Source: Labrenzia sp. R4_2
Lineage (GTDB): Bacteria > Pseudomonadota > Alphaproteobacteria > Rhizobiales > Stappiaceae
Reading direction: 5' to 3'
Length of the DNA: 64,000 nucleotides
NCBI RefSeq assembly: GCF_017743865.1
Contig: NZ_JAGHRJ010000007.1
Location: 1 to 64,000 of the forward strand
Below the pieces are notes generated by a model. It was not told the DNA's origin, did no database searches, and saw only the letters and a list, made by a program, of their open reading frames with translations. Position numbers and translations under genes: made by a program. Shown here piece by piece: positions 1,578 through 16,608 of the stretch (the stretch's first letter is position 1; each line of letters opens with the position of its first letter).

Positions 1578-1598
1578 CTCTTTCGCTGGTAATCTTGG

Positions 1599-2513: not shown

Positions 2514-2564
2514 AGTCTTCTCCTTCACTTGTAAAAATGAGGTGGCCGTGATTGGCACCTCGTA

Positions 2565-2589
2565 AACATCATCAGTTGGGAATGGTTCC
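2565..2589 (-). promoter_or_regulatory. Candidate EcfG-type promoter (TGTT variant) of the PRC-barrel gene
   Basis: Minus strand GGAAC (2589-2585), 16 bases, TGTT (2568-2565). The -35 and spacing are exact; the -10 differs at one base from CGTT. It lies about 50 bases before the start codon. Confidence 0.5.
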
Positions 2590-2619
2590 AAAAAAAACGC
2601 GCCGGTAAGGCGCGTTTTC
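2590..2619 (-). terminator. Intrinsic terminator after the PLDc_N gene
   Basis: Minus strand stem ACGCGCC/GGCGCGT with a short loop followed by eight T residues (plus-strand A run at 2590-2597), directly after the stop at 2623. Confidence 0.85.
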
Positions 2620-2622
2620 TAA

Positions 2623-2808
2623 TTAAGCAAGCTGTCCGCTGCCCCGGGGCCCGGCAAGCAGCCAGACAATGAAACCCACCACAGGGAAGATAAGGATGCC
2701 CAGAATCCAAAGGATCTTTCCGCCGGTAGAAGCGCCGCTCTGGATAATTTTTATGATCGCATAAATGTTCGCGATCAGGACCAGCAAACCGAGAAGACCA
2801 TATTCCAT
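2623..2808 (-). CDS. Small PLDc_N (phospholipase D N-terminal-like) membrane protein
   Basis: 61 residues with two transmembrane helices (MEYGLLGLLVLIANIYAIIK and ILWILGILIFPVVGFIVWLL) joined by a short polar loop and ending AGPRGSGQLA. This is the stand-alone PLDc_N module, also found before cardiolipin-synthase domains; alone it has no catalytic motif and its role is unknown. The frame reaches an ATG at 2832, but AAGGAG is placed eight bases before the ATG at 2808. An exact EcfG promoter precedes it, so it is probably a stress-induced envelope protein. Confidence 0.85.
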   Translation of the reverse strand: MEYGLLGLLVLIANIYAIIKIIQSGASTGGKILWILGILIFPVVGFIVWLLAGPRGSGQLA

Positions 2809-2838
2809 GATTGAAACTCCTTGTTCTGTCATGTTGGA

Positions 2839-2864
2839 AACGGTCCGATAGAGGTTTTGGTTCC
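2839..2864 (-). promoter_or_regulatory. EcfG-type promoter of the PLDc_N gene
   Basis: Minus strand GGAAC (2864-2860), 17 bases, CGTT (2842-2839): exact consensus with the longer permitted spacer. Confidence 0.8.
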
Positions 2865-2937
2865 ATTACACCTGTTGTTGGAAAGGAATCTCCGAAGCGG
2901 TTTGAGCAAGATGGGAACAAATTTCTAAAGAAGAAAT

Positions 2938-2962
2938 GGAACTGAATTCATTCCCGAGCGTT
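2938..2962 (+). promoter_or_regulatory. EcfG-type promoter of the DUF1328 gene
   Basis: GGAAC (2938-2942), 16 bases, CGTT (2959-2962), about 30 bases before the start at 2993. It overlaps the longer open frame from 2936 and so excludes that start. Confidence 0.8.
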
Positions 2963-2992
2963 GAAGAACTGTTACTCAAACAGGAGGATATA

Positions 2993-3163
2993 ATGCTTTC
3001 TTGGGCACTCATGTTTCTCGTCGTTGCACTTGTTGCAGCAGTACTTGGCTTCGGCGGTATTGCCGGTACTGCGGTATCAATTGCAAAACTGATTTTCTTT
3101 GTCGCGATCGCACTATTTTTGATCTCTGCGATCATGCACGTGGTTCGCGGAAGAAGCGCATAA
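2993..3163 (+). CDS. DUF1328 (UPF0391/YtjA-like) small membrane protein
   Basis: 56 residues, almost entirely two hydrophobic helices: [33 protein letters not shown], then a second membrane span and a basic tail HVVRGRSA. Length and the LGFGGIAG...AKL pattern are typical of DUF1328/UPF0391 proteins, which often appear in stress regulons but have no known activity. The start is fixed by AGGAGG a few bases upstream and by the EcfG promoter at 2938-2962. A strong terminator follows immediately, so it is monocistronic. Confidence 0.9.
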
Positions 3164-3172
3164 GCAAAAACT

Positions 3173-3196
3173 GGGCGCCACTGGCGCCCTTTTTTG
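3173..3196 (+). terminator. Intrinsic terminator after the DUF1328 gene
   Basis: GGGCGCC-ACT-GGCGCCC (3173-3189) followed by TTTTTTG. It also separates this gene from the convergent DUF2254 gene. Confidence 0.92.
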
Positions 3197-3202
3197 TGCC
3201 AT

Positions 3203-4513
3203 TTATGATCTTCGCGAAACACTTTGACTTAGCTGCTGTGCTCGCCAGAGGCTGGTTGCAATCTGGGATCTGTCGGCAGGGCTATTCAACTCAAGATTTG
3301 CATCCCGGGCAATATCATAGAGTTGGCGTTTGATCAGAGCCTTGTGCTCTGGACGGCAGACGATAGCCATTTTCCCAAGCGCTGAAATGAGATGGTCCAG
3401 TACCAGGACGTTGGATCTTGCGCATTGGCGCAGCGGGGCCATCGCAGTGTGCAGGATGTCCTTTACGGAAATCAGATCCAGCCACACACGCGGAGCGCCA
3501 TCCTCATCGCATAAAAGGGAACTTGGCGCACCGCGTTGCAAGATACGCGCAAAGCTCGCCGACAAGTGGTCGATCGCGCTGATAGCCGTGTAGGAATCAT
3601 TGATGCCGGGAGACAACGCCCTCAAGCCAATTTCCACCAACAAATGAACTGAAAACTGAATATCTCCCTCCGGGGCCCGGGCTTTGGCGAATTGAAACGC
3701 CAAAAGAACGGGATCGGTGTCACAGCCGTCCTCCTGACATCTCACCTCGGCGATCGGCATGCCCTCGATTACAAATACTCCGGGCGTCACAAGCACCTCA
3801 ATGAACCCATCGTAATGTTTGGCTGTTTCGATCAGATAATCGATGTCAATCGCAGTCACATAACCGCTTCGGTTGCCGTGCACCTTGGTCACCGGTAAGT
3901 CCGGGATTTCCTGACGGTCTGACGTTTTTTCAGGGGGCTCATGGGCAAGAAGAGCGTCAATGGACTGGCGCAACGACGTTTGAATACGCCCAATCTCGGC
4001 ATCCACCCGGATGCGGCCCGCCACGTCGTTTACAAAATAAACCAGCCAGAAAAAGCTCGCCGCCGCCAAGAAAATTGACACGCCAACGGAAAATCGAACT
4101 TCTTTCCCGTCCTCGACAACGAATAGTACAAGCAAGGCGTACAAAAAGGTTGCGCCCAGAAGACCGATGGTGATCTGGGTTGTGCGGTTGCTGGCAAAGG
4201 TCTCCAGCAAACGGGGAGCAATGTTGCCGGCCGCCAGAGTGAAGACCACCAGGGTCAGCGAATAGACCAAGCTGATGACCGACATCATCGCGCCGGCAAT
4301 CGTCGAAAGAACGCTCCGCGCACCTTCGACACTCAGTGTATTGTACCGGAGACTATCGAACACTTTGGCAAGCAGTTCGTTATCATCGATAAACAAGGTA
4401 ATTGGGGCAAGCACTGCGCCAAGAAGCGCAATGCAGACCGGTATGAAAAGAAACCCTTTGATCAGGCGGTAAAGCGCCTGCTCCTTCGCGTTATTCTGGT
4501 AGGCAAGCGCCAA
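3203..4513 (-). CDS. DUF2254 membrane protein, last gene of the nepR-ecfG operon
   Basis: 436 residues. About four membrane spans fill the N-terminal half (around residues 18-40, 75-98, 110-130 and 142-163), followed by a soluble C-terminal half with several conserved acidic/His positions (for example DIDYLIETAKHYDG and ALSPGINDSYTA). This is the DUF2254 architecture; the function is not known. The start codon is TTG at 4513, chosen because AGGAGC sits seven to eight bases upstream, just past the stop of the preceding channel gene (17-base gap). It is therefore likely cotranscribed with nepR-ecfG and the formate/nitrite-type channel. Confidence 0.88.
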   Translation of the reverse strand: MALAYQNNAKEQALYRLIKGFLFIPVCIALLGAVLAPITLFIDDNELLAKVFDSLRYNTLSVEGARSVLSTIAGAMMSVISLVYSLTLVVFTLAAGNIAPRLLETFASNRTTQITIGLLGATFLYALLVLFVVEDGKEVRFSVGVSIFLAAASFFWLVYFVNDVAGRIRVDAEIGRIQTSLRQSIDALLAHEPPEKTSDRQEIPDLPVTKVHGNRSGYVTAIDIDYLIETAKHYDGFIEVLVTPGVFVIEGMPIAEVRCQEDGCDTDPVLLAFQFAKARAPEGDIQFSVHLLVEIGLRALSPGINDSYTAISAIDHLSASFARILQRGAPSSLLCDEDGAPRVWLDLISVKDILHTAMAPLRQCARSNVLVLDHLISALGKMAIVCRPEHKALIKRQLYDIARDANLELNSPADRSQIATSLWRAQQLSQSVSRRS

Positions 4514-4530
4514 GCGATGTGCTCCTGATG

Positions 4531-5412
4531 TCAGATTTCTTTTCGGACCTGCGCATGCGCAATCAAAGCAAAAAGCGCTGTTCCACCAACGATGTTACCC
4601 AAGAGCGTCGGGATCAGGAAAGCTGCAACATCCAAAACACTGGAATGACCGATCCAGACGGCAAACACCGCCTCCACCGATCCGGCGACCACGTGTGTGA
4701 GATCAAGAGCTGCGATCAGCCAGGCCATGAGAAGGATGATGGCGACCTGCGAGTTTTCAGCGCTTGGCAGCAACCAGACCAAGGTTGCGACAATCCACCC
4801 GGCCAGTATGCCACGCAGGAACATTTCATGGTGCGGGATTTCCATCATGTGTATGGAAAGAGATCCAACCGCGTCATAAACCTGGAGCGGCAGAAAAAAG
4901 CCGCTTGCGATCGCGGAGCCGAAGACAAAGCTACCGATCATATTCGCACAGAAAACGATGGCCCACAGACGAGCAACGCACAGATAGGTGTGACGTTTGC
5001 CTGTACTGATTGCCGGCAGGACCGCAGTTAGCGTGTTTTCGGTAAAGAGTTGCTGTCTGGCAAGGATAACGATTAGAAATCCAACGCCATACCCGAGATT
5101 TTCGACCAAATGGCGCCAAGGGGAATCAGGCAGATAGGTCCGGAACAACGCTTCGCCGAGCACGGAAAACCCGATCGAAAGTCCAGCTGCAATGCCCGAC
5201 CACCACAGACTTTTCGGTCTGCGCGCGAGCTCTTCTTCGCCTTCTTGACGGATAATTTCGTAAACAACGGCGGCTTTCAAACGAAGCCGGTCATCTACCT
5301 CGGCAAGATCGTCCGAGGTGAGCCGCGTGCCTTCGTTGTCGAGCCTCTCTTCGGTAATCGGGCTTTTATTGTCTGCCTTTTCGCCGGCAACACGCTCCGG
5401 TTGGCGAGCCAT
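4531..5412 (-). CDS. Formate/nitrite transporter (FNT) family channel
   Basis: 293 residues. A roughly 65-residue charged N-terminal cytoplasmic region (including LKAAVVYEIIRQEGEEELAR) precedes six predicted membrane helices. Family features include the ARQQLFTENTLTAVLP segment and the HHEMFLRGILAGW segment of the FNT pore. FNT proteins are pentameric channels for small monovalent anions or neutral acids (formate, nitrite, hydrosulfide); substrate cannot be told from sequence. The N-terminal extension resembles stress-linked 'YfdC-like' members. The start is supported by AGGAGG six bases upstream. It lies 46 bases behind ecfG in the same orientation, suggesting stress-sigma control by readthrough. 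Confidence 0.88.
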   Translation of the reverse strand: MARQPERVAGEKADNKSPITEERLDNEGTRLTSDDLAEVDDRLRLKAAVVYEIIRQEGEEELARRPKSLWWSGIAAGLSIGFSVLGEALFRTYLPDSPWRHLVENLGYGVGFLIVILARQQLFTENTLTAVLPAISTGKRHTYLCVARLWAIVFCANMIGSFVFGSAIASGFFLPLQVYDAVGSLSIHMMEIPHHEMFLRGILAGWIVATLVWLLPSAENSQVAIILLMAWLIAALDLTHVVAGSVEAVFAVWIGHSSVLDVAAFLIPTLLGNIVGGTALFALIAHAQVRKEI

Positions 5413-5458
5413 AGCTTTCCTCCTGTCCGTAGCGCGAAACTGAGAGAATTTTTTGAAG

Positions 5459-6019
5459 TTAGGGTTGGGCCGAGAGAGCGTTTTGGATCAGTTCGGCAGA
5501 TTCAGCGACCGCGAGCTCCGAGCGCTCAAAGCTCTCCTGACCGCTCATCAATTCCTCCAACCGAGCACGTGCCCGTGAGACCCGGCTTTTGACTGTGCCT
5601 GGCCTCACACCCAAGATGTCGGCCACTTCTTCATATGAGAAGCCGCTTGCCCCAATCAGAATGAGGGCCTCGCGCTGATCATCGGGCAGGACCTGCAGTG
5701 CACTCAGGAAGTCCTTCATCTCCAAATGGCCTGCCTGCTGCGGTTTTGATTCAAGGCTTGCGGCATGTTCGCCATCGGGATCAGCGACCTCACGCTGCAT
5801 TTTCCGGCCAACCGAATAATACTGGTTGCGCAGGATGGTAATCAGCCAAGCCGTCAGGTTCGTGCCTTCGGTGAATTTGTCTTTGTTGGCAATCGCTTTG
5901 GCCAGAGTTTCTTGGACGAGGTCGTCTGCGCGGTCCCGGTTGCCACTGATGGAACGGGCAAACGCTCTCAGGCGCGGAATGGTGTCAACCAGGTCCTGTT
6001 TGAACTTTGCATTGTTCAT
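5459..6019 (-). CDS. ecfG: ECF sigma factor EcfG, general stress response
   Basis: 186 residues. Sigma region 2 lies at about residues 12-80 (RDRADDLVQETLAKAI, then the NLTAWLITILRNQYYS promoter-melting helix) and region 4 at about 100-165 (LPDDQREALILIGASGFSYEEVA and the GVRPGTVKSRVSRAR recognition helix). This is the EcfG type that recruits RNA polymerase to GGAAC/CGTT promoters. It is held off by NepR and released by phosphorylated PhyR. Its ATG overlaps the nepR stop (ATGA), indicating translational coupling of sigma and anti-sigma factor. The divergent phyR completes the switch. Confidence 0.96.
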   Translation of the reverse strand: MNNAKFKQDLVDTIPRLRAFARSISGNRDRADDLVQETLAKAIANKDKFTEGTNLTAWLITILRNQYYSVGRKMQREVADPDGEHAASLESKPQQAGHLEMKDFLSALQVLPDDQREALILIGASGFSYEEVADILGVRPGTVKSRVSRARARLEELMSGQESFERSELAVAESAELIQNALSAQP

Positions 6020-6237
6020 CCCTGTGCCTCTCCACCGGAGTTGCCATCAGACTGATCGGCATCATCAAGCGCGGACAGGAGCTCAAGCATGTCATCGGGA
6101 ACGTCTTCCGAAAGGGCTTCGTCGTAGACCTGTTTCAGCTGATTACCGATCCAGTCTTCCTTGGTCTTTGCGCCCATGTTCGGCCGGATGATACCAGAGC
6201 CGGCAATCGCCTGATCCGGTAAGTTTTTGGTTGGCAT
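6016..6237 (-). CDS. nepR: NepR-family anti-sigma factor
   Basis: 73 residues. The conserved NepR core is at about 24-62 (KTKEDWIGNQLKQVYDEAL, then SEDVPDDMLELLSALD): two helices that bind either EcfG or the sigma-like domain of PhyR. The N- and C-terminal tails are disordered and acidic, as usual. The start at 6237 is chosen because the longer open frame has no family similarity upstream and runs through the promoter at 6287-6311. The stop overlaps the ecfG start by four bases. Confidence 0.95.
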   Translation of the reverse strand: MPTKNLPDQAIAGSGIIRPNMGAKTKEDWIGNQLKQVYDEALSEDVPDDMLELLSALDDADQSDGNSGGEAQG

Positions 6238-6286
6238 GGCTAATTCCCGATATTTGCAGCTGCAGTGGCATGTGAATTGTAGCAGA

Positions 6287-6311
6287 AACGTGTCAGGCAA
6301 AAAAAAGTTCC
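6287..6311 (-). promoter_or_regulatory. EcfG-type promoter of nepR-ecfG (autoregulation)
   Basis: Minus strand GGAAC (6311-6307), 16 bases, CGTT (6290-6287): exact consensus, about 50 bases before nepR. It indicates positive autoregulation of the sigma operon. Confidence 0.88.
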
Positions 6312-6336
6312 ATCTGGCTGGAACTTTTTTTTGCCT
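6295..6336. repeat. 18-bp perfect palindrome between nepR and phyR
   Basis: AGGCAAAAAAAAGTTCCA (6295-6312) and its exact reverse complement (6319-6336) are separated by TCTGGC. Each arm contains one GGAAC -35 element, so the palindrome places the -35 boxes of the two divergent GSR genes back to back. It could also fold as a hairpin with T tracts on both strands. Confidence 0.9.
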
Positions 6337-6344
6337 AGCGCATT
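6320..6344 (+). promoter_or_regulatory. Candidate EcfG-type promoter (CATT variant) of phyR
   Basis: GGAAC (6320-6324), 16 bases, CATT (6341-6344), about 70 bases before phyR. The -10 differs from CGTT at one base, but the same CATT form at the same spacing recurs before gdhA and the dps operon. Confidence 0.5.
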
Positions 6345-6416
6345 TTCTCGTTAAGGGGACGGTCCACGTCATCTGGATAGCCGCGCAGATGCGGCATTTC
6401 ATTAAGGAAAAAATGA

Positions 6417-7220
6417 ATGGCCACGAGTCTTTCTCAAGATATTGCACCTTTGCTTCCCTACCTGCGCCGTTATGCTCGCGCGCTCGCGGGAACCCAGCAA
6501 AGCGGAGATGCTTATGTTCGCGCATGCTTGCAGGCATTAGTTTCAGATCAAAGCATCATCGATACAGGCGATGGCGTGAAGATTGGCCTCTACAGGCTGT
6601 TCCATGTTCTGTGGAATGCGTCCGTCGTTCCGCCCCCAACAACAGACGGCGCGGCATCAATTTTTGAACAGACCGCACAACAGCGCCTTGCCAGCATGGC
6701 GCAGGAAAGCCGGCAGACCTTGTTATTGACGACACTCGAGGGTTTCTCGGTGCCCGAAGCTGCGCGGATTATTCAGAAAAGCCCGGAAGAGGTCACTGAA
6801 CTGATCAAAGACGCCGTAGCTGAAATTGATCGTCAAACGAAAACAAATGTCTTGATCATTGAAGACGAGCCTTTGATCTCGATGGATCTCACCCAGATCG
6901 TTGAGTCGCTAGGCCACTCTGTCCAAGGTGTTTCGCGGACCGCAGACGACGCCATAAAGGCAGCGAAGGCCAACGCTCCGGGGTTGGTGCTTGCCGATAT
7001 TCAGCTGGCGGATGGCTCGTCCGGGGTTGATGCGGTCAAGGCCATCCTGGGCGAGATGTCGGTCCCGGTTATCTTCATCACATCGTTCCCTGAACGCCTG
7101 TTGACCGGAGAGCGGCCGGAGCCGACATTCCTCATTACCAAGCCGTTCAATCCCAACACTGTGAAAGCGGGCATCAGCCAGGCTCTGTTTTTCAAAGGAA
7201 CAGATGCGGTTGCAGCATAG
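6417..7220 (+). CDS. phyR: General stress response regulator PhyR
   Basis: 267 residues. The N-terminal half (about 1-138) is a sigma-factor-like domain mimicking EcfG regions 2 and 4 (SLSQDIAPLLPYLRRYARAL and LEGFSVPEAARIIQKSPEEV). The C-terminal half (about 143-258) is a receiver domain with acidic E149-D150, phospho-acceptor D194 in LVLADIQL and conserved K242 in LITKPF. When phosphorylated, PhyR captures NepR and frees EcfG. The start at 6417 follows an AAGGA box; an overlapping out-of-frame ATG lies four bases earlier. Divergent from nepR-ecfG, sharing the palindromic intergenic region. The HWE kinase at 7643 is a likely phosphodonor. Confidence 0.97.
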   Translation: MATSLSQDIAPLLPYLRRYARALAGTQQSGDAYVRACLQALVSDQSIIDTGDGVKIGLYRLFHVLWNASVVPPPTTDGAASIFEQTAQQRLASMAQESRQTLLLTTLEGFSVPEAARIIQKSPEEVTELIKDAVAEIDRQTKTNVLIIEDEPLISMDLTQIVESLGHSVQGVSRTADDAIKAAKANAPGLVLADIQLADGSSGVDAVKAILGEMSVPVIFITSFPERLLTGERPEPTFLITKPFNPNTVKAGISQALFFKGTDAVAA

Positions 7221-7234
7221 GGCGAAGTTTATGG

Positions 7235-7268
7235 AAGACAAAGGCGGGGACTTTCCCCGCCTTGTCGA
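7235..7268. terminator. Stem-loop between convergent phyR and csbD
   Basis: GACAAAGGCGGGG (7237-7249) pairs with CCCCGCCTTGTC (7255-7266) with one bulged base. There is no long T tract, so it is a terminator-like hairpin serving both convergent genes rather than a classical one. Confidence 0.6.
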
Positions 7269-7273
7269 AGAGC

Positions 7274-7471
7274 TCAGTGCTCGGACATCCATTGGTCGAC
7301 TTCGCGCTCAGCCTCTTCGCGTGTTTTGCCGTACTTCTGCTGTATCAGACCTGCCAATTCCGTTCGACGGCCGTCAACCCGGTCAATCTCGTCATCGGTC
7401 AACTTGCCCCACTGGGCTTGAGCCTTCCCTTTGAATTCTTTCCAATTGCCTTCGATTTGATCCCAATTCAT
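7274..7471 (-). CDS. CsbD-family stress protein
   Basis: 65 residues beginning MNWDQIEGNWKEFKGKAQ, with the family's WGKLTDDEIDRVDG segment and a helical charged end. CsbD-like proteins are small hydrophilic proteins induced by general stress sigma factors; their molecular role is unknown. A GGGAG box precedes the ATG. An exact EcfG promoter about 35 bases upstream of the start makes it a direct GSR target next to phyR. Confidence 0.93.
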   Translation of the reverse strand: MNWDQIEGNWKEFKGKAQAQWGKLTDDEIDRVDGRRTELAGLIQQKYGKTREEAEREVDQWMSEH

Positions 7472-7506
7472 CTTCTGAAACTCCCTTTGGTGTCAGACAG
7501 CTAGAA

Positions 7507-7531
7507 AACGAATTTCAGCTTGGTTGGTTCC
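7507..7531 (-). promoter_or_regulatory. EcfG-type promoter of the csbD-like gene
   Basis: Minus strand GGAAC (7531-7527), 16 bases, CGTT (7510-7507): exact consensus. Confidence 0.85.
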
Positions 7532-7642
7532 CGAAGAAATCTGCCAACTGCTCCGAAACAGCACAAGGCTGCGGCCAGTGTAGTTCAAAAATCTAGAAGC
7601 CGGCGCTCCAGAAACATCCGGTGAACAAAACGGAAGCCCGAC

Positions 7643-9445
7643 ATGCAGGACATCATCAACTATCTCTTTGGGGCCGCATCCTTCATGCCTCATGGATATT
7701 GCCTCTTATGGCGGCCTGACCTGGTCGCACTGCATGCGATTTCCGATGGTCTGATCGCCTTGGCCTATATCGCTATTCCAATGGCGATTTTGACGTTCTT
7801 GCGGCAACGGCCGGATATCACGGGAACGCCGCGCAAAACCGCCTATCTCTTCGTTGCGTTTATCTTGGCCTGCGCACTGACACATCTCACCGCTCTGGCA
7901 ACGCTTTGGGTTCCGGCCTATGGCGCTCAAGGGCTCATAAAAGCGACAACAGCCATCATTTCCGTAGCGACAGCATTTGTAGTGTGGCGTTTGCTGAGCC
8001 AGTTGATCGACATGCCCTCGGTCAAACTGCTGGAACAAGCAAACGAACTGCTCGCAAAAGAAAACCGCGCGCTTAACACAGCTGTCGGCCGGACTAAGGC
8101 TGAGCTTGCCCGAACCAACGAGCTCTTCGAAACGGCACTTACCGGAAGCAATATTTCGGTTTTTTCTCAAGACCGGGACCTCAAGTATACATGGATCCAC
8201 AATCCGCGTTTCGGGCTTGAAAAGTCCGAAATTCTTGGCAAATCAGATGTTGATGTGTTGCCGGATGCAGCTGCCGACCAGGTCGTGCCCGTGAAACGCC
8301 GGGTCGTCGAAACAGGCGAACCGTCTTCGACCTATATTGGCATAGAGCGGGAAGACACTGAGCCCCTTTACTTCGACCTGATCGTCCACCCAACCTTTGG
8401 TGAGGACGGCAAAGTAGACGGCGTGTTGTGCACGGCCGTGGACATGACAGAAAAGAATTTTTACGAGATCCGGCTTGCGTCCATGGCCGCGCAATTGGCG
8501 GAAGCGAACAAACGGTTCGAAACAGCCTTGGATGGCTCAATCATCACCGTGTTCGAGCAGGATCGCGACCTCAAGTACGTTCATATGGTCAATCCACCGA
8601 ACGGATTGAAAGAAGACGTTTTCATCGGCAAGACAGATGACGAGATCTTCAACGAAGACGATCAGCTCAAACTTATTCCGGTCAAGAAAAAGGTGCTGGA
8701 AACCGGAGAAAGCGCCGTTGTTGAAGTTGATATCGCGATGGACGGAACCGCGAAGTTCTACAATGTCCGCTTCGATCCGGCGCGGGATGCAGAAAGAACA
8801 ATAACGGGCGTGATCGGCACAGCCGTCGACCTCACCTACAAGAGGGACAACGAACGCCAGATGCACTTGGTCATGCGGGAGTTGACTCACCGGTCCAAGA
8901 ACCTGCTTGCCGTCATTCAGGCAATGGCCCGGCAAACTGCCGCGAGATCCGATAATCCTGACGAATTCGTCGAAGTGTTCTCTGCGCGCCTTCAGGCCAT
9001 GGCCGCAAGCCACGATCTATTGGTTTCACAGTCCTGGTATGGGGCGGATTTGAAAGAATTGATTGTCGCGCATCTTTCTCAATCCATAGATCCGCAAAGC
9101 CCGCAAATCATTCTTGAAGGCCCTGGAAAATCCATTACAGCGGATGCGGCTCAAAATCTGGGATTGGCCCTGCACGAACTAACCACAAATGCTGCGAAAT
9201 ACGGAGCATTGTCAGTGCTGGATGGGAAGCTGAAAGTGACCTGGGCCGAAAATGACGGTGTGGTCGAACTCAAATGGGAAGAAATCGGGGGGCCTGAAGT
9301 CGTGCTGCCGAAGCGGAATGGGTTCGGCCGTATGCTACTGGAACAACTCGTTGGGCCTGCGCTGGATGGGGCAGTTAAAGTCGAGTTTGCTCCGGACGGA
9401 GTAAAATGCACCATCACCTTCCCTGCCAAACAACTTGTCAATTGA
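7643..9445 (+). CDS. HWE-type sensor histidine kinase with ethylene-receptor-like membrane domain and two PAS domains
   Basis: 600 residues. Residues about 14-122 form three membrane helices that follow the plant/bacterial ethylene-receptor N-terminus: PHGYCLLWRPDLVALH, ISD(35), AY(42), IP(45-46), then AC(77)ALTH(81). D35, Y42, I45, P46, C77 and H81 line up with D25, Y32, I35, P36, C65 and H69 of Arabidopsis ETR1, the Cu(I)/ethylene site. A coiled linker (126-160) leads to two tandem, similar PAS domains (about 160-270 and 290-400, both with VFxQDRDLKY). The kinase core has H416 in LTHRSKNLLAVIQ, the HELTTNAAKYGALS N-box at 511 and a W-x-E motif, all HWE/HisKA_2 hallmarks. Kinases of this type phosphorylate PhyR, encoded 0.4 kb away. 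Signal and partner are inference. Confidence 0.92.
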   Translation: MQDIINYLFGAASFMPHGYCLLWRPDLVALHAISDGLIALAYIAIPMAILTFLRQRPDITGTPRKTAYLFVAFILACALTHLTALATLWVPAYGAQGLIKATTAIISVATAFVVWRLLSQLIDMPSVKLLEQANELLAKENRALNTAVGRTKAELARTNELFETALTGSNISVFSQDRDLKYTWIHNPRFGLEKSEILGKSDVDVLPDAAADQVVPVKRRVVETGEPSSTYIGIEREDTEPLYFDLIVHPTFGEDGKVDGVLCTAVDMTEKNFYEIRLASMAAQLAEANKRFETALDGSIITVFEQDRDLKYVHMVNPPNGLKEDVFIGKTDDEIFNEDDQLKLIPVKKKVLETGESAVVEVDIAMDGTAKFYNVRFDPARDAERTITGVIGTAVDLTYKRDNERQMHLVMRELTHRSKNLLAVIQAMARQTAARSDNPDEFVEVFSARLQAMAASHDLLVSQSWYGADLKELIVAHLSQSIDPQSPQIILEGPGKSITADAAQNLGLALHELTTNAAKYGALSVLDGKLKVTWAENDGVVELKWEEIGGPEVVLPKRNGFGRMLLEQLVGPALDGAVKVEFAPDGVKCTITFPAKQLVN

Positions 9446-9495
9446 AGCAACGAGCCGATTATGCTGACGCTGACGGCTCGGGCCGACTTACAGAC

Positions 9496-9702
9496 CTACG
9501 TCTTCAGCCGCTGAAGCGCGTCTTCGATATCGTGCAGCTTTGCCTGACGGTCTGCGGCACCTTCAGTCATATTGGGGGATTGCAGCAGTCTGGTCCGCCA
9601 AGACAAAAGGGCTGATTTCTTTTGAGCTCGGTTCAATCCCGGATCGTTCAGAAGGCCTTCGACAGACCGGAAACCGGCGAAACGTTGGGGAACTGAATTC
9701 AT
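9496..9702 (-). CDS. Small hypothetical protein with a DPGL-(N)-R-A-x-K-K motif
   Basis: 68 residues. It resembles short alphaproteobacterial proteins with a 'L-x-D-P-x-L-x-R-x-x-K-x-x-L-L-x-S-W' pattern (here VEGLLNDPGLNRAQKKSALLSW) and a charged helical tail (LHDIEDALQRLKT). Function unknown. The frame has two possible ATGs (9714 and 9702); neither has a clear Shine-Dalgarno and the later is used because the motif begins soon after. It lies between the sensor kinase and dps, both of stress character. Confidence 0.55.
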   Translation of the reverse strand: MNSVPQRFAGFRSVEGLLNDPGLNRAQKKSALLSWRTRLLQSPNMTEGAADRQAKLHDIEDALQRLKT

Positions 9703-9799
9703 AACATCGCACATTTGTTTGCAGTTCTAAACCGGGCCTGCCGCCACCCGGAAAACGGATGGCGGCAGAGTTCCAATTCGTTCTATCTGAACGCACAGC

Positions 9800-10309
9800 T
9801 TATTCGGTGATGAGCGCCCTCAGCATCCAAGCGGCCTTTTCGTGGAACGTGATCCGCTCCGTCAAAAGATCTTCAGTGACGACATCACTATTGTCGCCGG
9901 CGTAAGTCGCCATGTCCCGCATCTCCGCGGAGATCGTTTCATGGCTCTCGACAAGGTCGGCAATCATGTCATGGGCGTCCGGCATGCCGCCAGATGGCAA
10001 CTGGATGGTGAGGTTCAGTTTCCCATCCTGAACGTTTACCGGCGCCCGATGCCCAAGGGCTCGAATGCGTTCCGCAAGCTCATCGGTGGCCGCAAACATG
10101 TCTTCATAATGCTCTTCCGTCAGGTCGTGGATCGACTTGAAGAGCGGGCCGACAACGTTCCAATGATACAGGTGAGACTTCACCGTCAGCATGTATGTCT
10201 CCGCCAGCATCACCGACAAATGTTTTGCAAGTTGAGCGCGTACGTCAGCGGAAACGCCGGTTTTGATGGGTTCGCTTTTCGGTGTTTCAACCTTCAATAC
10301 GTTAGACAT
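9800..10309 (-). CDS. dps: Dps-family ferritin-like DNA-protection protein
   Basis: 169 residues, the usual Dps length. The ferroxidase segment is intact at about residues 48-82: HLYHWNVVGPLFKSIHDLTEEHYEDMFAATDE, with the His, Asp and Glu ligands that bind iron at the dimer interface. A Lys-containing N-terminal tail may bind DNA. Dps dodecamers oxidise Fe(II) with peroxide, store iron and coat DNA during starvation and oxidative stress. It lies 54 bases downstream of a small membrane protein gene in the same direction and may share its promoter. Confidence 0.93.
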   Translation of the reverse strand: MSNVLKVETPKSEPIKTGVSADVRAQLAKHLSVMLAETYMLTVKSHLYHWNVVGPLFKSIHDLTEEHYEDMFAATDELAERIRALGHRAPVNVQDGKLNLTIQLPSGGMPDAHDMIADLVESHETISAEMRDMATYAGDNSDVVTEDLLTERITFHEKAAWMLRALITE

Positions 10310-10363
10310 TAGATTTCCTTTGTAATTTCAGTGTTCTAAACAAGATCGCAGCGGTTCTTTGCG

Positions 10364-10549
10364 TTAGTAGTTTTCTGGCGACTCAATGGCACCGATTGTC
10401 GGGACCACACCTGCGGTGTGAAGAATTCCAAGTCCGGCAAACGTCACAACAGCCAGGAACAGGCTTGCGGCGAGTACTTTTACGACCGGCCGCCCGCGTT
10501 CACCCTGACGGGCTTCTTCTGCAGTTCGCTTCGTGTGTTCTGTGACCAT
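10364..10549 (-). CDS. Small single-span membrane protein upstream of dps
   Basis: 61 residues: a charged N-terminus (MVTEHTKRTAEEARQGERGR), one membrane helix (VLAASLFLAVVTFAGLGIL) and a short outer tail ending SPENY. Not a named family that I recognise. A longer frame starts at a GTG (10558), but AGGAGG is ideally spaced (eight bases) for the ATG at 10549. A CATT-type EcfG promoter candidate lies upstream; dps follows closely, suggesting an operon. Confidence 0.75.
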   Translation of the reverse strand: MVTEHTKRTAEEARQGERGRPVVKVLAASLFLAVVTFAGLGILHTAGVVPTIGAIESPENY

Positions 10550-10596
10550 TTCGATCACCTCCTAAGCGTGATTTTCTAAAACGGGCTCAGGGTGTA

Positions 10597-10621
10597 AATG
10601 CAAAGATACGAAAAGCGTTCC
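10597..10621 (-). promoter_or_regulatory. Candidate EcfG-type promoter (CATT variant) of the small membrane protein-dps unit
   Basis: Minus strand GGAAC (10621-10617), 16 bases, CATT (10600-10597), about 50 bases before the start codon. Confidence 0.45.
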
Positions 10622-10740
10622 AGAAAAAATCTGAAGTATTTTTGAATTCATATGAAAAAATAAAGCTATTTCGCATCGAAAGATGACGGTATCAGCTGCG
10701 AATTACACAACATAGACGCCGTCTCATTTAATGGAGATTC

Positions 10741-10765
10741 GGAACCGGAAACAACTTCGCGCATT
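10741..10765 (+). promoter_or_regulatory. Candidate EcfG-type promoter (CATT variant) of gdhA
   Basis: GGAAC (10741-10745), 16 bases, CATT (10762-10765), about 25 bases before the translation start. Confidence 0.5.
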
Positions 10766-10792
10766 CTTATATTTAGACGCATGGAGGTTAGG

Positions 10793-12124
10793 TTGACGAA
10801 AAACAGTGTGATTGATGATTTGTTAGATGAAATTACTAGCGCAAATCCTGAGCAGCCAGAGTTTCTGCAGGCTATAGACGAGATGGCTCAGTCCATCGGT
10901 GTCTGGTACGGAAAGCAAAAAGACTTTCGAAAATCACGAATTTTTCAGCGGCTCGCGGAACCGGATCGCGTCATTTCGTTTCGCGTTTCCTGGCGCGATG
11001 ACAAAGGCGTGCTCCAGCATAACAGAGGCTGGCGTGTCCAGTTTTCTCATATTCTCGGCCCCTATAAGGGCGGATTGCGGTTCGCGCCGAGCGTTACGGA
11101 AAGTGTTCTGAAGTTTCTCGGCTACGAGCAGATTTTTAAGAACGCCTTGACCGGTCTGCCAATGGGTGGGGCGAAGGGCGGCTCAAACTTCGATCCCAAA
11201 GGAAAAAGCCCGGCCGAAATCGAACGTTTCTGCCAATCCTTCATGACGGAGCTATCACGTCACATCGGCCCGGACATCGATGTCCCGGCGGGCGATATCG
11301 GCGTTGGTCAACGGGAAATTAGCCTGCTCTACGGCCACTATCTCCGCCTTTCCAACACATGGCATGGCGCTTTGACTGGGAAAGGCTGCAATTTCGGCGG
11401 TAGCGCTGTTCGAACGGAAGCGACCGGCTACGGCTGTGTCTACTTTTGTTGTGAGATGCTGTCCCACAACGATTTGGAGATCGAGGGCAAGAGGATCGCC
11501 ATCAGTGGTTCTGGCAACGTCGCGCTTCATGCTGCGGAAAAGGCCATCGATATGGACGCCACGGTATTGAGTGTGAGCGACTCCGATGGGGTGCTGGAAT
11601 TCAAGGACGGCCTGACAAAAAAAGATCTCGGCAAGGTCAAAACCCTCAAAGGCAAGGGTGGACGCTTGTCGGATCTGTCTTTTGGCAAGTTCCACAAAGG
11701 CAAAACACCTTGGAACCTTGAATGCGACATTGCCATGCCCTGCGCAACACAGAACGAGTTGGACGAAGACGCGGCCAAAACACTCGTAGAGGCCGGCGTT
11801 TTAGCCGTCTGCGAAGGCGCCAACATGCCTTTGACTGCAAAAGCTTCAGAGATCTTTCGACAAAAACGAATCCTCCACGCGCCAGGTAAGGCAGCAAACG
11901 CGGGTGGTGTTGCCGTCAGTGGTTTGGAGCAGAGCCAGAATGCAATGCGGCAAAGCTGGAGCGCGGAAAAGGTCGACCAGGAGCTCCGGGACATCATGAA
12001 GAAGATCCACGGCGAGATCGTTTCTGCAGATACGGGCCAAAAGCGGCTCAGCTACGTCGACGGAGCCAATTTGGCTGCATTCAAACGTGTCGCACATGCG
12101 TTTCATTCATTCGGAAGTTTCTGA
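10793..12124 (+). CDS. gdhA: NADP-type glutamate dehydrogenase
   Basis: About 443 residues, the length of hexameric NADP-dependent GDH. It interconverts 2-oxoglutarate plus ammonia and glutamate in the cytoplasm. Visible motifs are GPYKGGLRFAPSV, LPMGGAKGGSNFDPKGKS (catalytic Lys region), VPAGDIGVGQREI, the Rossmann ISGSGNVALHAAEKA and ANAGGVAVSGLEQSQN. An in-frame ATG occurs at 10781, but its own bases supply a GGAGG box five bases before the TTG at 10793 (MTKNSVIDDLL...), so the TTG start is preferred. A CATT-type EcfG promoter candidate precedes it. Three small stress-type genes follow in the same direction, beginning 34 bases later. Confidence 0.93.
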   Translation: MTKNSVIDDLLDEITSANPEQPEFLQAIDEMAQSIGVWYGKQKDFRKSRIFQRLAEPDRVISFRVSWRDDKGVLQHNRGWRVQFSHILGPYKGGLRFAPSVTESVLKFLGYEQIFKNALTGLPMGGAKGGSNFDPKGKSPAEIERFCQSFMTELSRHIGPDIDVPAGDIGVGQREISLLYGHYLRLSNTWHGALTGKGCNFGGSAVRTEATGYGCVYFCCEMLSHNDLEIEGKRIAISGSGNVALHAAEKAIDMDATVLSVSDSDGVLEFKDGLTKKDLGKVKTLKGKGGRLSDLSFGKFHKGKTPWNLECDIAMPCATQNELDEDAAKTLVEAGVLAVCEGANMPLTAKASEIFRQKRILHAPGKAANAGGVAVSGLEQSQNAMRQSWSAEKVDQELRDIMKKIHGEIVSADTGQKRLSYVDGANLAAFKRVAHAFHSFGSF

Positions 12125-12158
12125 CCCGGTGCGGCTGTGAAAAGGAGAGTGAAAAACA

Positions 12159-12404
12159 ATGACTGAAAAGCACAACCCGTACAGCAAGGGAGACCGGGTC
12201 GCTTGGAACTGGGGTGAGGGTACGGGTGAGGCTACGGTGGTCGACACGCACACTGAGGACGTCTGTCTCAGCATCAAGGGCACGGATGTGAAGCGGCGCG
12301 CGACCCCTGAAGACCCCGCCTACACATTGCGACAGGATGATGGCGACAGGGTTCTCAAATCCGCGAGTGAACTGACGCTGATCAAGAAAGGAGATGGAAA
12401 ATGA
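12159..12404 (+). CDS. DUF2945 / hypervirulence-associated TUDOR-domain protein
   Basis: 81 residues. The YSKGDRVAWNWGEGTGEATVVDTHTEDV start is the small beta-barrel signature of DUF2945 (HVA1 TUDOR-like) proteins; the rest is charged, ending LIKKGDGK. Such proteins are often encoded with stress genes; molecular role unknown, nucleic-acid binding possible. AAGGAG precedes the ATG. Its stop overlaps the next start by four bases (ATGA), so the two are coupled and probably belong with gdhA. Confidence 0.85.
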   Translation: MTEKHNPYSKGDRVAWNWGEGTGEATVVDTHTEDVCLSIKGTDVKRRATPEDPAYTLRQDDGDRVLKSASELTLIKKGDGK

Positions 12405-12661
12405 GCAGCAAGGATCGCCCGAGCATTAAGGACGAAGAAACCTATGACGCCTTGCGGCGTGAGGGCTACGGAAAGTCAAAAGCGGCTCGTATCGCCAACG
12501 CACAGGCGAATGAAAACCAATCGCCTTCTGAAAAGGGTGGGTCACAGCCACCCTATGAGGATTGGACCAAGGAAGAGCTCTACGAGCGGGCGAGAGAACT
12601 GGAAATCGAAGGCCGATCAGAAATGTCTAAAGACGAATTGATTGGCGCCCTTCGGGGCTGA
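12401..12661 (+). CDS. Small protein with Rho-N/SAP-like C-terminal motif
   Basis: 86 residues in two parts. The N-terminal part (SIKDEETYDALRREGYGKSKAARIAN) resembles short ChaB-like/DUF7218 stress proteins. The C-terminal part (YEDWTKEELYERARELEIEGRSEMSKDELIGALR) matches the Rho termination factor N-terminal/SAP-like helix-extended-loop-helix fold, likely to bind nucleic acid. A linker with NENQSPSEKGGSQPP joins them. Translationally coupled to the DUF2945 gene. Confidence 0.82.
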   Translation: MSSKDRPSIKDEETYDALRREGYGKSKAARIANAQANENQSPSEKGGSQPPYEDWTKEELYERARELEIEGRSEMSKDELIGALRG

Positions 12662-12695
12662 TTGTTGTTTTCAAGCTGAATTTTCCTAAGTGCCG

Positions 12696-12720
12696 GGAAC
12701 TTTTGTCTGACCTCCAAGTT
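12696..12720 (+). promoter_or_regulatory. Weak EcfG-like promoter candidate (AGTT) before the DUF883 gene
   Basis: GGAAC (12696-12700), 16 bases, AGTT (12717-12720), 125 bases before the start codon. One mismatch in the -10; long leader. Tentative. Confidence 0.3.
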
Positions 12721-12845
12721 TACAGACGGTTGGACCTATGCGCTCCAGCCCCAATCGAGCAGCACGGAGCTGCTTGAACACAACATTTCCCACCGGCGGT
12801 TCGGGGACATTTCCCGGGTTCTCCGGAGCAAATTGGAGGCATTTC

Positions 12846-13190
12846 ATGGCAACTGCCAAAAGCACTTCCACTTCTTCGACCAAAGCTGCAAATGACGCGG
12901 TGAATGCCAGTGATATTGAAGCTGACATTCAGCGCATCCGCGAGGACATTGCCGCGCTTGCCGGCTCACTCAAAAATTACGGGTCTGGTAAAAGCCAGGA
13001 ATACAAATCGCGTGCGACCGCGGCAGGTGAAGATCTAACGCAAATGTCTCAGGACGCGCTCGATGATCTGACCCGTGAATTGAAATCCTATGAGCGGGCC
13101 GTGACCGATGAAGTCCGCCGCCACCCCTTGCAATCCCTGGGAATTGCGGCCGGTGTCGGTTTCCTGATTGCAGCTTTGATCCGCCGTTGA
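12846..13190 (+). CDS. DUF883 (ElaB/YqjD/YgaM-like) membrane-anchored protein
   Basis: 114 residues: a Ser/Thr/Ala-rich N-terminus, a long amphipathic helical region (about 25-85), and a C-terminal membrane anchor (HPLQSLGIAAGVGFLIAALIRR) typical of ElaB/YqjD proteins. In enterobacteria these tail-anchored proteins associate with ribosomes in stationary phase; that role here is inference. GGAGG lies seven bases before the ATG at 12846. The next gene starts just past its stop. Confidence 0.88.
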   Translation: MATAKSTSTSSTKAANDAVNASDIEADIQRIREDIAALAGSLKNYGSGKSQEYKSRATAAGEDLTQMSQDALDDLTRELKSYERAVTDEVRRHPLQSLGIAAGVGFLIAALIRR

Positions 13191-13192
13191 TC

Positions 13193-13612
13193 ATGCGGAC
13201 GGTCCCCCTCGCCTTCTCGGCGGCATCCCGCGACCTGCGCGGGATGGTGCGCCGGACGAAGCGCAACATCGTTATAATGGCGATTGCTGCCGCGTCTTTT
13301 GGCACGGCCTATCTGGCCGGTCTTGCCGCACTTGGCATTTATCTTTCTGAACAGCTCGGAGCCTTGAGCGCTGCTTTGGCCATCGCCCTGGGAATGATTG
13401 GCGTCGGTCTCGGCCTTCTCATTGTTTTAGCGGTCTTGAAGAAAATCGACGAGCGGCGCAGCGCGAAACGCCGCGCGGCTCAAAGGCTGGCCATAGCAGC
13501 AGCAGTTTCAGTCCTCCCACAACTGACCAATCGAAAGAGCATCATCGCCCTTGCCGCATTGGGTGGACTTGCGCTTTTTGCAGCGCGGGGCGGCGGAGAT
13601 GACGGGACCTGA
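13193..13612 (+). CDS. Phage-holin-like (DUF1469-type) membrane protein
   Basis: 139 residues: a basic N-terminus (SAASRDLRGMVRRTKRN), two close membrane helices (about 30-55 and 62-88), a basic loop (KKIDERRSAKRRAAQR) and a weaker hydrophobic C-terminal segment. It resembles the holin-superfamily/ActB-like partners that follow YqjD genes (YqjE-like); function unknown. A TTG at 13187 overlapping the previous stop could also start the frame; the ATG at 13193 is used. It overlaps the next gene by 14 bases. Confidence 0.72.
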   Translation: MRTVPLAFSAASRDLRGMVRRTKRNIVIMAIAAASFGTAYLAGLAALGIYLSEQLGALSAALAIALGMIGVGLGLLIVLAVLKKIDERRSAKRRAAQRLAIAAAVSVLPQLTNRKSIIALAALGGLALFAARGGGDDGT

Positions 13613-14684
13613 TATGGCACACCACGCTCCACCCGAAGCTCACGCAAATGTATCAGCCTCACCAGTTGGGATTGCAGATCCAGCCACGCGTATGTCCCTT
13701 GTCATACTTGCGTGTCTGGCTCTTGTGTTTGCGCTGGATGTGGGCAAGGTCATTCTTGCGCCGGTCTGTTTGTCGATCGTGGTCGGTTCTTTGTTCGGAC
13801 CTGCGGCGGATCGTCTTGGCCGTCTTGGCATACCGTCATGGGTGTCGGCGGCCTTAATGGTGGTTTTGTTTATCTTGCTCATCACGACCGCCGGCGCAGC
13901 ATTTATGGTACCGTTGTCTGACTGGCTCGATAAACTGCCGTTGATCTGGGCCAAACTGCAAAGCAAGCTCGTTTCCTGGCAGGGGTTGTTTGCCTCCATC
14001 AGCAGTCTGCAGGAAGAACTCCGCAATGCGATGGGCCAATCCGGAAACATGCAGGTTAGCGTCGATGAAACGTCGCCGGTGGAGAGCGTTTTCTACTTCG
14101 CCCCGACATTCATGGCACAGATAATATTGTTTCTCGCCAGCCTTTATTTCTTCGTCCTGACCCGGCCGCGAGTTTTCCGATCTACTGTCGATTGGTCAAC
14201 TCCGGCAACAAAACGGTATCGCATGGCAATTGCGTTTCAACGGATCGAAAAGCGGCTCTCGACTTACCTGTTGTCCATTACTTGCGTGAATGTCGGTCTG
14301 GCAGCGGCCGTTTCAGCGGCTCTTTGGCTGATCGGTGTGCCGTCACCGGTCTTGTGGGGCGTTCTAGCGGGTGTGCTTAACTATGTAATTTACATCGGCC
14401 CGGCCATCATGGTGCTGATCATGACAGGTGTGGGGCTGTCGATTGGAAACTCAGTTTCGGAAATTCTCCTGCCGCCAATGGTCTATCTGCTTATCAATCT
14501 TTTTGAGGCGCAGTTCGTCACGCCAACTGTTCTCGGCCGAACTATGACGCTCAACCCGTTTCTCGTATTTTTGACAATCGCATTTTGGATTTGGCTTTGG
14601 GGTCCAATCGGTGGGTTCATTGCCGTTCCAGCCCTTTTGGCAGGGGTAACGCTATATGAAATTTCGAATGATCCGTCTGATTAA
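13599..14684 (+). CDS. AI-2E/PerM-family transporter
   Basis: 361 residues with about eight membrane helices: paired helices at the N-terminus (about 30-75), another near 85-105, a cytoplasmic/periplasmic helical region around 115-165, then four to five helices to the end. The late LGRTMTLNPFLVFLTIAFWIWLWGPIGGFIAVP segment is the hallmark of the AI-2E (TqsA/YdiK/PerM) family, whose members export small molecules or act as antiporters. The ATG at 13599 overlaps the previous gene; an alternative is the ATG at 13614. A very strong bidirectional terminator follows. Confidence 0.87.
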   Translation: MTGPDMAHHAPPEAHANVSASPVGIADPATRMSLVILACLALVFALDVGKVILAPVCLSIVVGSLFGPAADRLGRLGIPSWVSAALMVVLFILLITTAGAAFMVPLSDWLDKLPLIWAKLQSKLVSWQGLFASISSLQEELRNAMGQSGNMQVSVDETSPVESVFYFAPTFMAQIILFLASLYFFVLTRPRVFRSTVDWSTPATKRYRMAIAFQRIEKRLSTYLLSITCVNVGLAAAVSAALWLIGVPSPVLWGVLAGVLNYVIYIGPAIMVLIMTGVGLSIGNSVSEILLPPMVYLLINLFEAQFVTPTVLGRTMTLNPFLVFLTIAFWIWLWGPIGGFIAVPALLAGVTLYEISNDPSD

Positions 14685-14702
14685 CAGGCGGATCTTTACG
14701 AT

Positions 14703-14744
14703 AAAAAAACAGCTGCTCGGACTTGTCCGAGCAGCTGTTTTTTT
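14703..14744. terminator. Strong bidirectional intrinsic terminator
   Basis: A perfect 19-bp inverted repeat: A7-CAGCTGCTCGGA, loop CTTG, TCCGAGCAGCTG-T7. It serves both the AI-2E gene (plus) and the convergent secreted-protein gene (minus). Confidence 0.95.
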
Positions 14745-14762
14745 ATGTGGTGTGCACGCAAA

Positions 14763-15059
14763 TCAATCTGAGTTTAGCGCAATCATACCATTTGCAAGCG
14801 GCCAGCCGGTACATGTTGTCTGCTGCATGCTGGACACACAGCGGACCGGGCGTTTGTGAACATCGTCGAGGGAAATCTTCAAGTCACCTTTCCCGCTAGA
14901 GAACATGTCTTGCACCTCTGCAACTGGCGTAACTGGCTTTGCATCGACATCCTCGTCTTCATACAGATATTCTGTAGCAGCAAGAGCACTGGTGAATAGA
15001 GTTCCCGCAAAAATTACAGGTGTACTGAGCGTAAGAACTCGCTTGCGAAAAGTAATCAT
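14763..15059 (-). CDS. Secreted hypothetical protein
   Basis: 98 residues. Signal peptide MITFRKRVLTLSTPVIFAGTLFTSALA, then a mature region starting ATEYLYEDEDVDAKPV with no recognised domain; it has two Cys (VRCVSS, TTCTGW) that could form a disulfide. The ATG at 15059 is fixed by GGAGG seven bases upstream; an earlier in-frame Met has no such site. It converges on the AI-2E gene and shares the bidirectional terminator. Confidence 0.7.
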   Translation of the reverse strand: MITFRKRVLTLSTPVIFAGTLFTSALAATEYLYEDEDVDAKPVTPVAEVQDMFSSGKGDLKISLDDVHKRPVRCVSSMQQTTCTGWPLANGMIALNSD

Positions 15060-15605: not shown

Positions 15606-15629
15606 GGGAAAGCTGCTCGGACCACTGTG

Positions 15630-16598: not shown

Positions 16599-16608
16599 AA
16601 CTGGTCAA

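Follow-up and report, generated by a model that had tools for sequence, protein, structure and literature searches.

AzoEtr1 of Azospirillum brasilense, described in 2025 as the first functional proteobacterial ethylene receptor, its phosphorelay being a prediction, binds ethylene in yeast through its residues 1-130, and disruption of its gene removes the binding from cells (PMC11819568, section 6). Ethylene binding by plant ETR1 needs seven residues; D35, C75, H79, and K98 of AzoEtr1 are the equivalents of ETR1 D25, C65, H69, and K91, and a model of inverse agonism, with ethylene acting as an inhibitor, has been proposed for the receptors of plants, Synechocystis, and Azospirillum (PMC11819568). 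The outputs attached to ethylene-binding domains in bacteria vary, and the word HWE does not occur in the review passages that describe them (PMC7700396). HWE/HisKA2 kinases are known as sensors of the general stress response that act through phosphorylation of PhyR (PMC12148442), and the family is marked by HRxxN around the phospho-histidine and a glutamate in the N-box (PMC12148442, PMC5898713). Caulobacter PhyK and Sphingomonas PhyT are phosphotransferases through which phosphate moves from MrrA or SdrG to PhyR; PhyT is also a negative regulator (PMC5964349, PMC5898713). Here we describe a gene in which a sensor of the ethylene-receptor type and an HWE kinase are joined in a single protein next to phyR. 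It lies in the first 64,000 nucleotides of contig NZ_JAGHRJ010000007.1 of Labrenzia sp. R4_2 (Stappiaceae), the whole stretch of DNA that we analyzed and refer to as the window. We consider it probable that this protein is a membrane kinase of the Cu(I)/ethylene receptor type that sets the PhyR-NepR-EcfG switch.

The gene is composed as follows.

7643..9445, + strand: ETR1_N-PAS-PAS-HWE histidine kinase gene, 600 amino acids (open reading frame with ATG start; Pfam domains)
7721..8011, + strand: ETR1_N ethylene/Cu(I)-binding domain, residues 27-123 (PF25487; helices from the AlphaFold2 model)
7745..7747, + strand: D35, equal to D25 of ETR1 and D35 of AzoEtr1 (alignment to AzoEtr1 Sp7)
7871..7873, + strand: C77, predicted Cu(I) ligand, equal to C65 of ETR1 and C75 of AzoEtr1 (alignment)
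7883..7885, + strand: H81, predicted Cu(I) ligand, equal to H69 of ETR1 and H79 of AzoEtr1 (alignment)
8021..8143, + strand: probable signaling coiled coil, residues 127-167 (single long helix in the model)
8156..8455, + strand: PAS domain 1, residues 172-271 (PAS_4, PF08448)
8543..8836, + strand: PAS domain 2, residues about 301-398 (second PAS_4 stretch; PAS_10 at 342-398 below its cut-off; model strands)
8879..9124, + strand: HWE kinase core, residues 413-494, with H416 in HRSKN (PF07536, E 3.3e-25)

The N-terminal domain matches the ETR1_N profile at 103.3 bits, against a cut-off of 27, with an expectation value (E) of 8.9e-30 in the Pfam scan and 2.0e-30 in the genome search. Aligned with the 525-residue frame of AzoEtr1 from A. 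brasilense Sp7, 54 of 128 residues of the sensor are identical, and all 11 site positions that were checked agree (P16, H17, C20, D35, Y42, I45, P46, and, window residue first, I74/I72, C77/C75, H81/H79, and K100/K98). The original prediction had placed D35, Y42, I45, P46, C77, and H81 at the spacing of the ETR1 site, and had set a profile match and the alignment of C77 and H81 beforehand as its own test; all six residues are where it put them, C77 and H81 fall on C75 and H79 of AzoEtr1, and I74 and K100 are present in addition. Together D35, Y42, I45, P46, I74, C77, and H81 provide a counterpart for each of the seven ETR1 binding residues, of which the four besides D25, C65, and H69 are Y32, I35, P36, and I62. 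Among the best 80 of 267 relatives in a scan of named genomes with the ETR1_N alignment, the nearest come from an unclassified alphaproteobacterial bin and Roseibium hamelinense (99% and 97% over the domain, respectively), followed by other Roseibium and Stappia.

Pfam likewise supports the two PAS domains and the HWE core read behind this sensor, with PAS_4 matching in two stretches (E 1.4e-19 in the Pfam scan) and PF07536 in the core, from which the ATP-binding part runs to the C terminus. The kinase carries the marks of an HWE histidine kinase, with the family profile, ELTHRSKN around the phospho-histidine, an N-box HELTTNAAKYG (HELTTNAAKYGAL) with its glutamate, and a GFG motif. The AlphaFold2 model, built on an alignment of 23 sequences (predicted local distance difference test score (pLDDT) 74.9; predicted template modeling score (pTM) 0.34), has three N-terminal helices, a long helix at 127-167 that is probably a signaling coiled coil, two PAS folds, the dimerization and histidine phosphotransfer helices, and the ATP-binding part. 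Its three predicted transmembrane helices occupy residues 25-55, 62-87, and 94-122, and pLDDT is below 50 for residues 1-23 and 88-92. The top Foldseek match of the model is the Brucella LOV-HK HWE kinase (6ph4). Among solved structures no chain matched the ETR1_N alignment up to E 10, and a scan of viral contigs gave no relative of the whole kinase.

The genes that stand before the kinase are those of the general stress response switch.

6417..7220, + strand: phyR, sigma-like domain plus receiver (NF006623, PF22029, PF22233, PF00072)
6016..6237, - strand: nepR-like anti-sigma factor open reading frame, 73 amino acids (by place; kept between ecfG and phyR in relatives)
5459..6019, - strand: ecfG-type sigma factor gene (sigma-70 region 2/4 and PhyR_sigma2 matches)
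7274..7471, - strand: csbD-like gene, between phyR and the kinase (PF05532, E 8.1e-20)

PhyR scores 360 bits with NF006623 (cut-off 240), and 422 bases separate phyR from the kinase gene. The predicted neighborhood of phyR, nepR, and ecfG thus stands, PhyR and EcfG by profile; the open reading frame at 6016-6237 is a putative NepR, recognized by its place.

We compared this arrangement across 87 genomes of the family Stappiaceae, of which 30 have an ETR1_N domain and 44 have PhyR over its cut-off. A kinase of the same ETR1_N-PAS-PAS-HWE build follows phyR in the same direction in 24 of the 87, the window's genome included; in the 23 others the gap between the two reading frames is 387-1757 bases. 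The usual order at these linked loci is ecfG-nepR / phyR / csbD / kinase, with one divergent member (G018) lacking any csbD, NepR, or Dps match, and the linked kinases share 46 to 99% identity with that of the window. HWE_HK matches occur in 48 of the 87 genomes, namely in all 44 with PhyR and in four others, and 39 of the 43 PhyR-less genomes have no HWE kinase. Two of the four (G003 and G012) hold broken pieces of PhyR, and the other two (G075 and G086) a degenerate kinase. For 13 of the 24 linked genomes no HWE match besides the ETR1_N kinase was found, and in 11 of these 13 its site is intact. In the 5.66-Mb genome of the window it is both the sole HWE and the sole HisKA_2 Pfam match (HisKA_2 up to E 0.1), a count that rests on Pfam and that a kinase too divergent for Pfam would escape. 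At the 20 remaining phyR loci of the family, no ETR1_N kinase lies in the fetched stretch (0/20) and 17 have another HWE kinase (>150 bits); eight proteins scanned from seven of these non-ETR loci are five CHASE-HWE kinases, two HWE kinases without CHASE, and one HisKA_2 kinase with a weak HAMP match. The CHASE-HWE kinases near phyR are at loci L062, L065, L067, L070, and L073 of other family genomes; CHASE is the sensor type of plant cytokinin receptors (PMC7700396).

The association reaches beyond the family. With E up to 0.001, 64 of 397 genomes sampled from the order have an ETR1_N match (55 exceed the cut-off), as do 28 of 385 sampled from the class. Of the 93 non-family ETR1_N rows 80 were fetched, those left out being 9 of 60 order rows (all below the cut-off) and 4 of 33 class rows (three over it). 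Proteins were called HWE-type with a kinase hidden Markov model made from the window's relatives, so that HisKA_2 kinases count as other, and reading frames below 150 amino acids were left out of the count of PhyR neighbors, which for the order and class samples affected L218 and a fragment in L237. PhyR lies in the same stretch for 23 of 25 HWE-type ETR1_N proteins in the family, 18 of 21 in the named genomes (16 of these 18 being family species already counted), and 21 of 30 in the order and class samples; for other ETR1_N proteins the corresponding counts are 0/6, 0/59, and 2/49. The order and class contrast gives a Fisher probability of 3.5e-10 when relatedness is ignored. Its two exceptions are L209, an HWE-like kinase cut by the contig end, and L163, a hybrid. 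The latter, an ETR1_N-PAS-HisKA hybrid kinase at 6260-10527 of its locus, is separated by 1.2 kb from a true PhyR; its genome belongs to another family, and no PhyR appears in the stretch at the other fetched ETR1_N loci of the genus. The linked cases outside the family, 21 in all, span 12 order-sample genera and two genomes of the class sample. Amorphus coralli, considered as an independent case, proved weak; its adjoining PhyR is a very divergent second copy on a long branch, and a better PhyR lies on another contig.

Trees, all of them quick ones, bear on whether kinase and PhyR have traveled together. In the PhyR tree (108 rows) the PhyRs from ETR loci of Stappiaceae fall into a single group (23 rows; SH-like approximate likelihood ratio test (SH-aLRT) 99), which five loci of another family (f16) and one metagenome-assembled genome (MAG) join (29 rows, SH-aLRT 94), and the kinase tree (114 rows) likewise unites Stappiaceae and f16 (29 rows, SH-aLRT 85). 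Within this main group the two proteins are co-inherited. On the PhyR tree the label of having an ETR-type kinase nearby changes 8 times versus about 35 when shuffled, a figure to which near-copies contribute. Outside the main group the label is mixed; at L269 (g38), for example, the kinase is short and lacks ETR1_N, although two loci of the same genus are of the ETR type. A first tree of 90 kinases held 53 ETR rows in one group (SH-aLRT 86); in the 114-row tree, enlarged by 34 kinases from 40 further PhyR loci of the order and reduced by 10 rows (long branches and two pseudokinases), this group splits at weakly supported deep branches. The trees thus do not decide whether ETR1_N and the HWE kinase were fused once or several times. 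Genomic partnership with PhyR is seen for the window kinase in linkage, co-occurrence, and matching trees, and the link is stronger than adjacency because of the 24-genome linkage, the nearly perfect co-occurrence of HWE kinases with PhyR in the family, the agreeing main-group trees, and the sole HWE/HisKA_2 match.

Promoter-like sites and the remaining neighbors complete the locus.

6287..6311, - strand: EcfG-type site upstream of nepR-ecfG, GGAAC-N16-CGTT, exact
6320..6344, + strand: EcfG-type site upstream of phyR, one mismatch
7507..7531, - strand: EcfG-type site upstream of csbD, exact
9496..9714, - strand: conserved open reading frame of 72 amino acids downstream of the kinase (same place in most relatives; no Pfam match)
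9800..10309, - strand: Dps/ferritin-like gene (PF00210; same place in most relatives)

The search used GGAAC-N16/17-CGTT, the EcfG consensus. With N16 spacing the window has 7 exact sites versus a shuffled mean of 0.63 (200 shuffles, largest 4), and its first 17 kb has 6 versus 0.19 (300 shuffles, the largest also 6); allowing one mismatch gives 27 sites versus 16.5 expected, and N17 spacing is not enriched in the window (1 exact versus a shuffled mean of 0.84). The exact N16 sites within positions 1-17000 are those at 1356, 2938, 6287, 7507, 16485, and 16574, and this part of the window looks like a stress-gene cluster around phyR. Among 23 linked family loci (the 24th, G018/L056, was left out, being without a csbD match) an EcfG-type site directed at csbD occurs in 23 and one between nepR and phyR in 22.

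The mechanism that we propose would run as follows. The three N-terminal membrane helices would hold Cu(I) through C77 and H81; D35 and K100 would complete the site, at which ethylene would bind. Occupancy of the site would be relayed through the long helix and the two PAS domains, which may also bring cytoplasmic input, to the HWE kinase core. The core would phosphorylate PhyR directly or through a single-domain regulator, and phospho-PhyR would then remove NepR from EcfG, leaving EcfG to transcribe stress genes, with csbD, nepR-ecfG, and phyR as candidate targets beside the kinase. Direct phosphorylation is the simplest reading because the ATPase motifs are present and there is no second HWE/HisKA_2 Pfam match. 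By analogy with the known receptors, for which the inverse-agonist model is proposed, ethylene would be expected to lower kinase activity and PhyR phosphorylation and so to damp the stress response. A further step, which we offer only tentatively and as leaning to the doubtful, is that ethylene is the dominant membrane input to this response. The sole HWE/HisKA_2 kinase would then be a receptor switched off by the gas, from algae, plants, or photochemistry, which would set stress readiness, and the sensor types of ethylene and cytokinin receptors would share one position at the switch within the family.

A number of observations weigh against this proposal. Of the 24 linked family kinases, 18 keep the ethylene site intact and six have it broken: C77G with H81Q or H81E in three (G053, G042, and G068), H81K in G018, C77Y with Y42C in G058, and C77N with other changes in G043. 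These represent fewer than six loss events because three of the six are close relatives. Outside the family the full site remains in only five of the 21 linked kinases (three from family f14, one from f16, and Amorphus) and 16 have lost it, the placement of the site in the most diverged rows resting on one MAFFT alignment. With losses in 6 of 24 and 16 of 21, such kinases can therefore stay with PhyR without an ethylene site. In the order and class samples, nine of the 30 HWE-type ETR1_N loci are without PhyR in the fetched stretch. As for PhyR, 259 of the 397 order-sample genomes (85 of 141 genera) have it, and at the 40 further PhyR loci, one per genus, no HWE kinase bears ETR1_N (0/40; ETR1_N was sought in HWE kinases only, and, as the loci come from the higher-scoring matches listed and from genera other than those with known ETR-linked loci, this is no frequency). 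ETR1_N-HWE is therefore not the usual PhyR partner, and an ETR1_N-HWE kinase at phyR is a minority solution. The PhyR of G018 sits on a long branch among other-type PhyRs and not with the ETR-type ones, and the 87 family genomes are interrelated and are not independent observations. At the locus itself, csbD stands between phyR and the kinase on the opposite strand, so the two adjoin without forming one simple operon. Membership of the kinase in the EcfG regulon is not supported as a general rule, exact kinase-directed sites occurring in only 2 of the 23 loci, the window not among them. The AlphaFold2 model is of moderate quality, and adjacency is no proof of direct phosphodonation, because PhyT and PhyK are phosphotransferases.

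This last point leads to an alternative in which the protein is mainly a phosphotransferase or a brake on PhyR, fed by a single-domain regulator, with the membrane sensor tuning the traffic. Caulobacter PhyK acts in this way, as does Sphingomonas PhyT, whose gene lies at the phyR locus, and the two qualify the starting assumption that HWE kinases are the known phosphodonors of PhyR: HWE/HisKA2 sensors do act through PhyR, but the statement is too simple, given that PhyT and PhyK are phosphotransferases fed by SdrG and MrrA. The ATPase of PhyT, however, is degenerate, and no such degeneration was found in the ATP-binding domain of the window kinase, in which the N-box and GFG motif are present; its kinase part matches the kinase domain of Brucella LOV-HK (5epv) with 34% identity, and within the HWE and HisKA_2 families Pfam finds no other protein in the genome as a source of phosphate. 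We therefore regard this alternative as unlikely. That the kinase does not serve PhyR at all and stands beside it by accident, as the intervening csbD on the opposite strand and the lack of an EcfG site of its own in the window could suggest, appears very improbable. The linkage persists across kinases of widely varying identity to that of the window, co-occurrence and trees agree with it, and the two PhyR-less genomes with an ETR1_N-HWE protein have a degenerate kinase core. In these two, Stappia indica and S. taiwanensis (G075 and G086; L005/L034 and L006/L035), the ethylene site is full but the HRxKN, N-box, and GFG motifs are lost, no PhyR is over the cut-off, and the ratio of sensor to kinase identity is near 1.5; the protein is, judged from its sequence, a receptor-like pseudokinase.

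Another alternative concerns the signal. The ETR1_N domain may bind Cu(I) and respond to something other than ethylene, such as copper supply, another small alkene or gas, or redox state, or the PAS domains may sense while the membrane part serves as an anchor. The two PAS domains, the six site-less kinases that are still at PhyR, and the fact that the source bacterium is not known to be exposed to ethylene speak for this view, which we regard as a real possibility, if a doubtful one. Against it stand the 11 site positions shared with a proven ethylene binder and the pattern of divergence, in which an intact site goes with a sensor conserved to the same degree as the kinase core, and a lost site with a sensor that diverges faster than the core. 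Measured against the window kinase as the only reference, with the near-copies G035, G039, and G051 left out of the alignment, the ratio of sensor to kinase identity is 0.92-1.07 in the kinases with the site (n = 14) versus 0.55-0.72 in those without (n = 6; sensor 36-56%, kinase core 54-78% identical), with no overlap. Constraint seems to act on the sensor in proteins that keep the site, and on the kinase core in genomes that have PhyR. As to copper status, which the original prediction had offered beside ethylene as the signal, nothing that we found favors copper as a signal over copper as a cofactor. Separately, in several families of the order, HWE kinases next to phyR (L203-L205, L208, L210, L212, and similar) carry very diverged ETR1_N-like membrane domains from which the copper site is gone; these may be relics or sensors of something else.

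In literature searches, mainly of openly readable papers, we found among the papers listed no report that links ethylene perception to PhyR or EcfG; papers in which ethylene shares the text with PhyR, EcfG, NepR, or HWE and stress terms use the word ethylene once each, and the words HWE and PhyR are absent from the main text of the AzoEtr1 paper (PMC11819568). As far as these searches show, the ETR1_N and the HWE-PhyR halves are each known and their conserved union has not been described. The locus combines a receptor for which there is a clear candidate ligand and a well-studied output, readable with an EcfG reporter, and natural controls come with it in the linked family kinases without the copper site and in the two receptors that apparently have no working kinase core. 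Roseibium marinum is one species in which the site is lost. If the proposal is true, a plant-hormone gas controls the stress tolerance of marine bacteria; according to abstracts, members of this marine genus have been isolated from corals and live with algae.

Among the known systems AzoEtr1 is most directly comparable, being, like the window kinase, an alphaproteobacterial protein in which ETR1_N precedes PAS and kinase parts, with the 11 site positions identical. It differs in having, as described, one PAS domain and an overlapping downstream single-domain regulator (PMC11819568), whereas the window kinase has two PAS domains. Of two other Azospirillum ETR1_N proteins one has a HisKA (L161) and one a HisKA_2 kinase (L121), neither being HWE like the window kinase. 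An AzoEtr1-like layout, an ETR1_N kinase followed by an overlapping single-domain response regulator, was also seen in a Caulobacter (L106, 7899-10003, HisKA_2) and in a Hyphomicrobiales MAG (L117, 939-2458). Synechocystis SynEtr1 and plant ETR1 share with the window kinase the three-helix ethylene domain on a histidine-kinase frame, but their outputs differ, running through slr1213 (PMC11819568) and CTR1 (PMC7700396), respectively, neither of them, as described there, a sigma-factor partner switch. On the stress response side, Paks of Sphingomonas melonis, RT-HK of Rubellimicrobium, and Brucella LOV-HK are, like the window kinase, HWE/HisKA2 kinases tied to the general stress response. The Paks, however, are cytoplasmic (PMC5898713), unlike the membrane-type kinase described here, and RT-HK (PMC12148442) and Brucella LOV-HK sense through LOV domains rather than ETR1_N. 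PhyT (PhyP) and PhyK resemble the window kinase in bearing a histidine and act on PhyR, and PhyT is, in addition, membrane-anchored and encoded at the phyR locus, as in the setting of the window kinase (PMC5898713); its sensor is putatively periplasmic and its ATPase degenerate (PMC5898713), whereas the window kinase keeps its ATPase motifs. The CHASE-HWE kinases of other Stappiaceae place an HWE kinase at the phyR locus just as the window does, with a CHASE sensor instead of ETR1_N.

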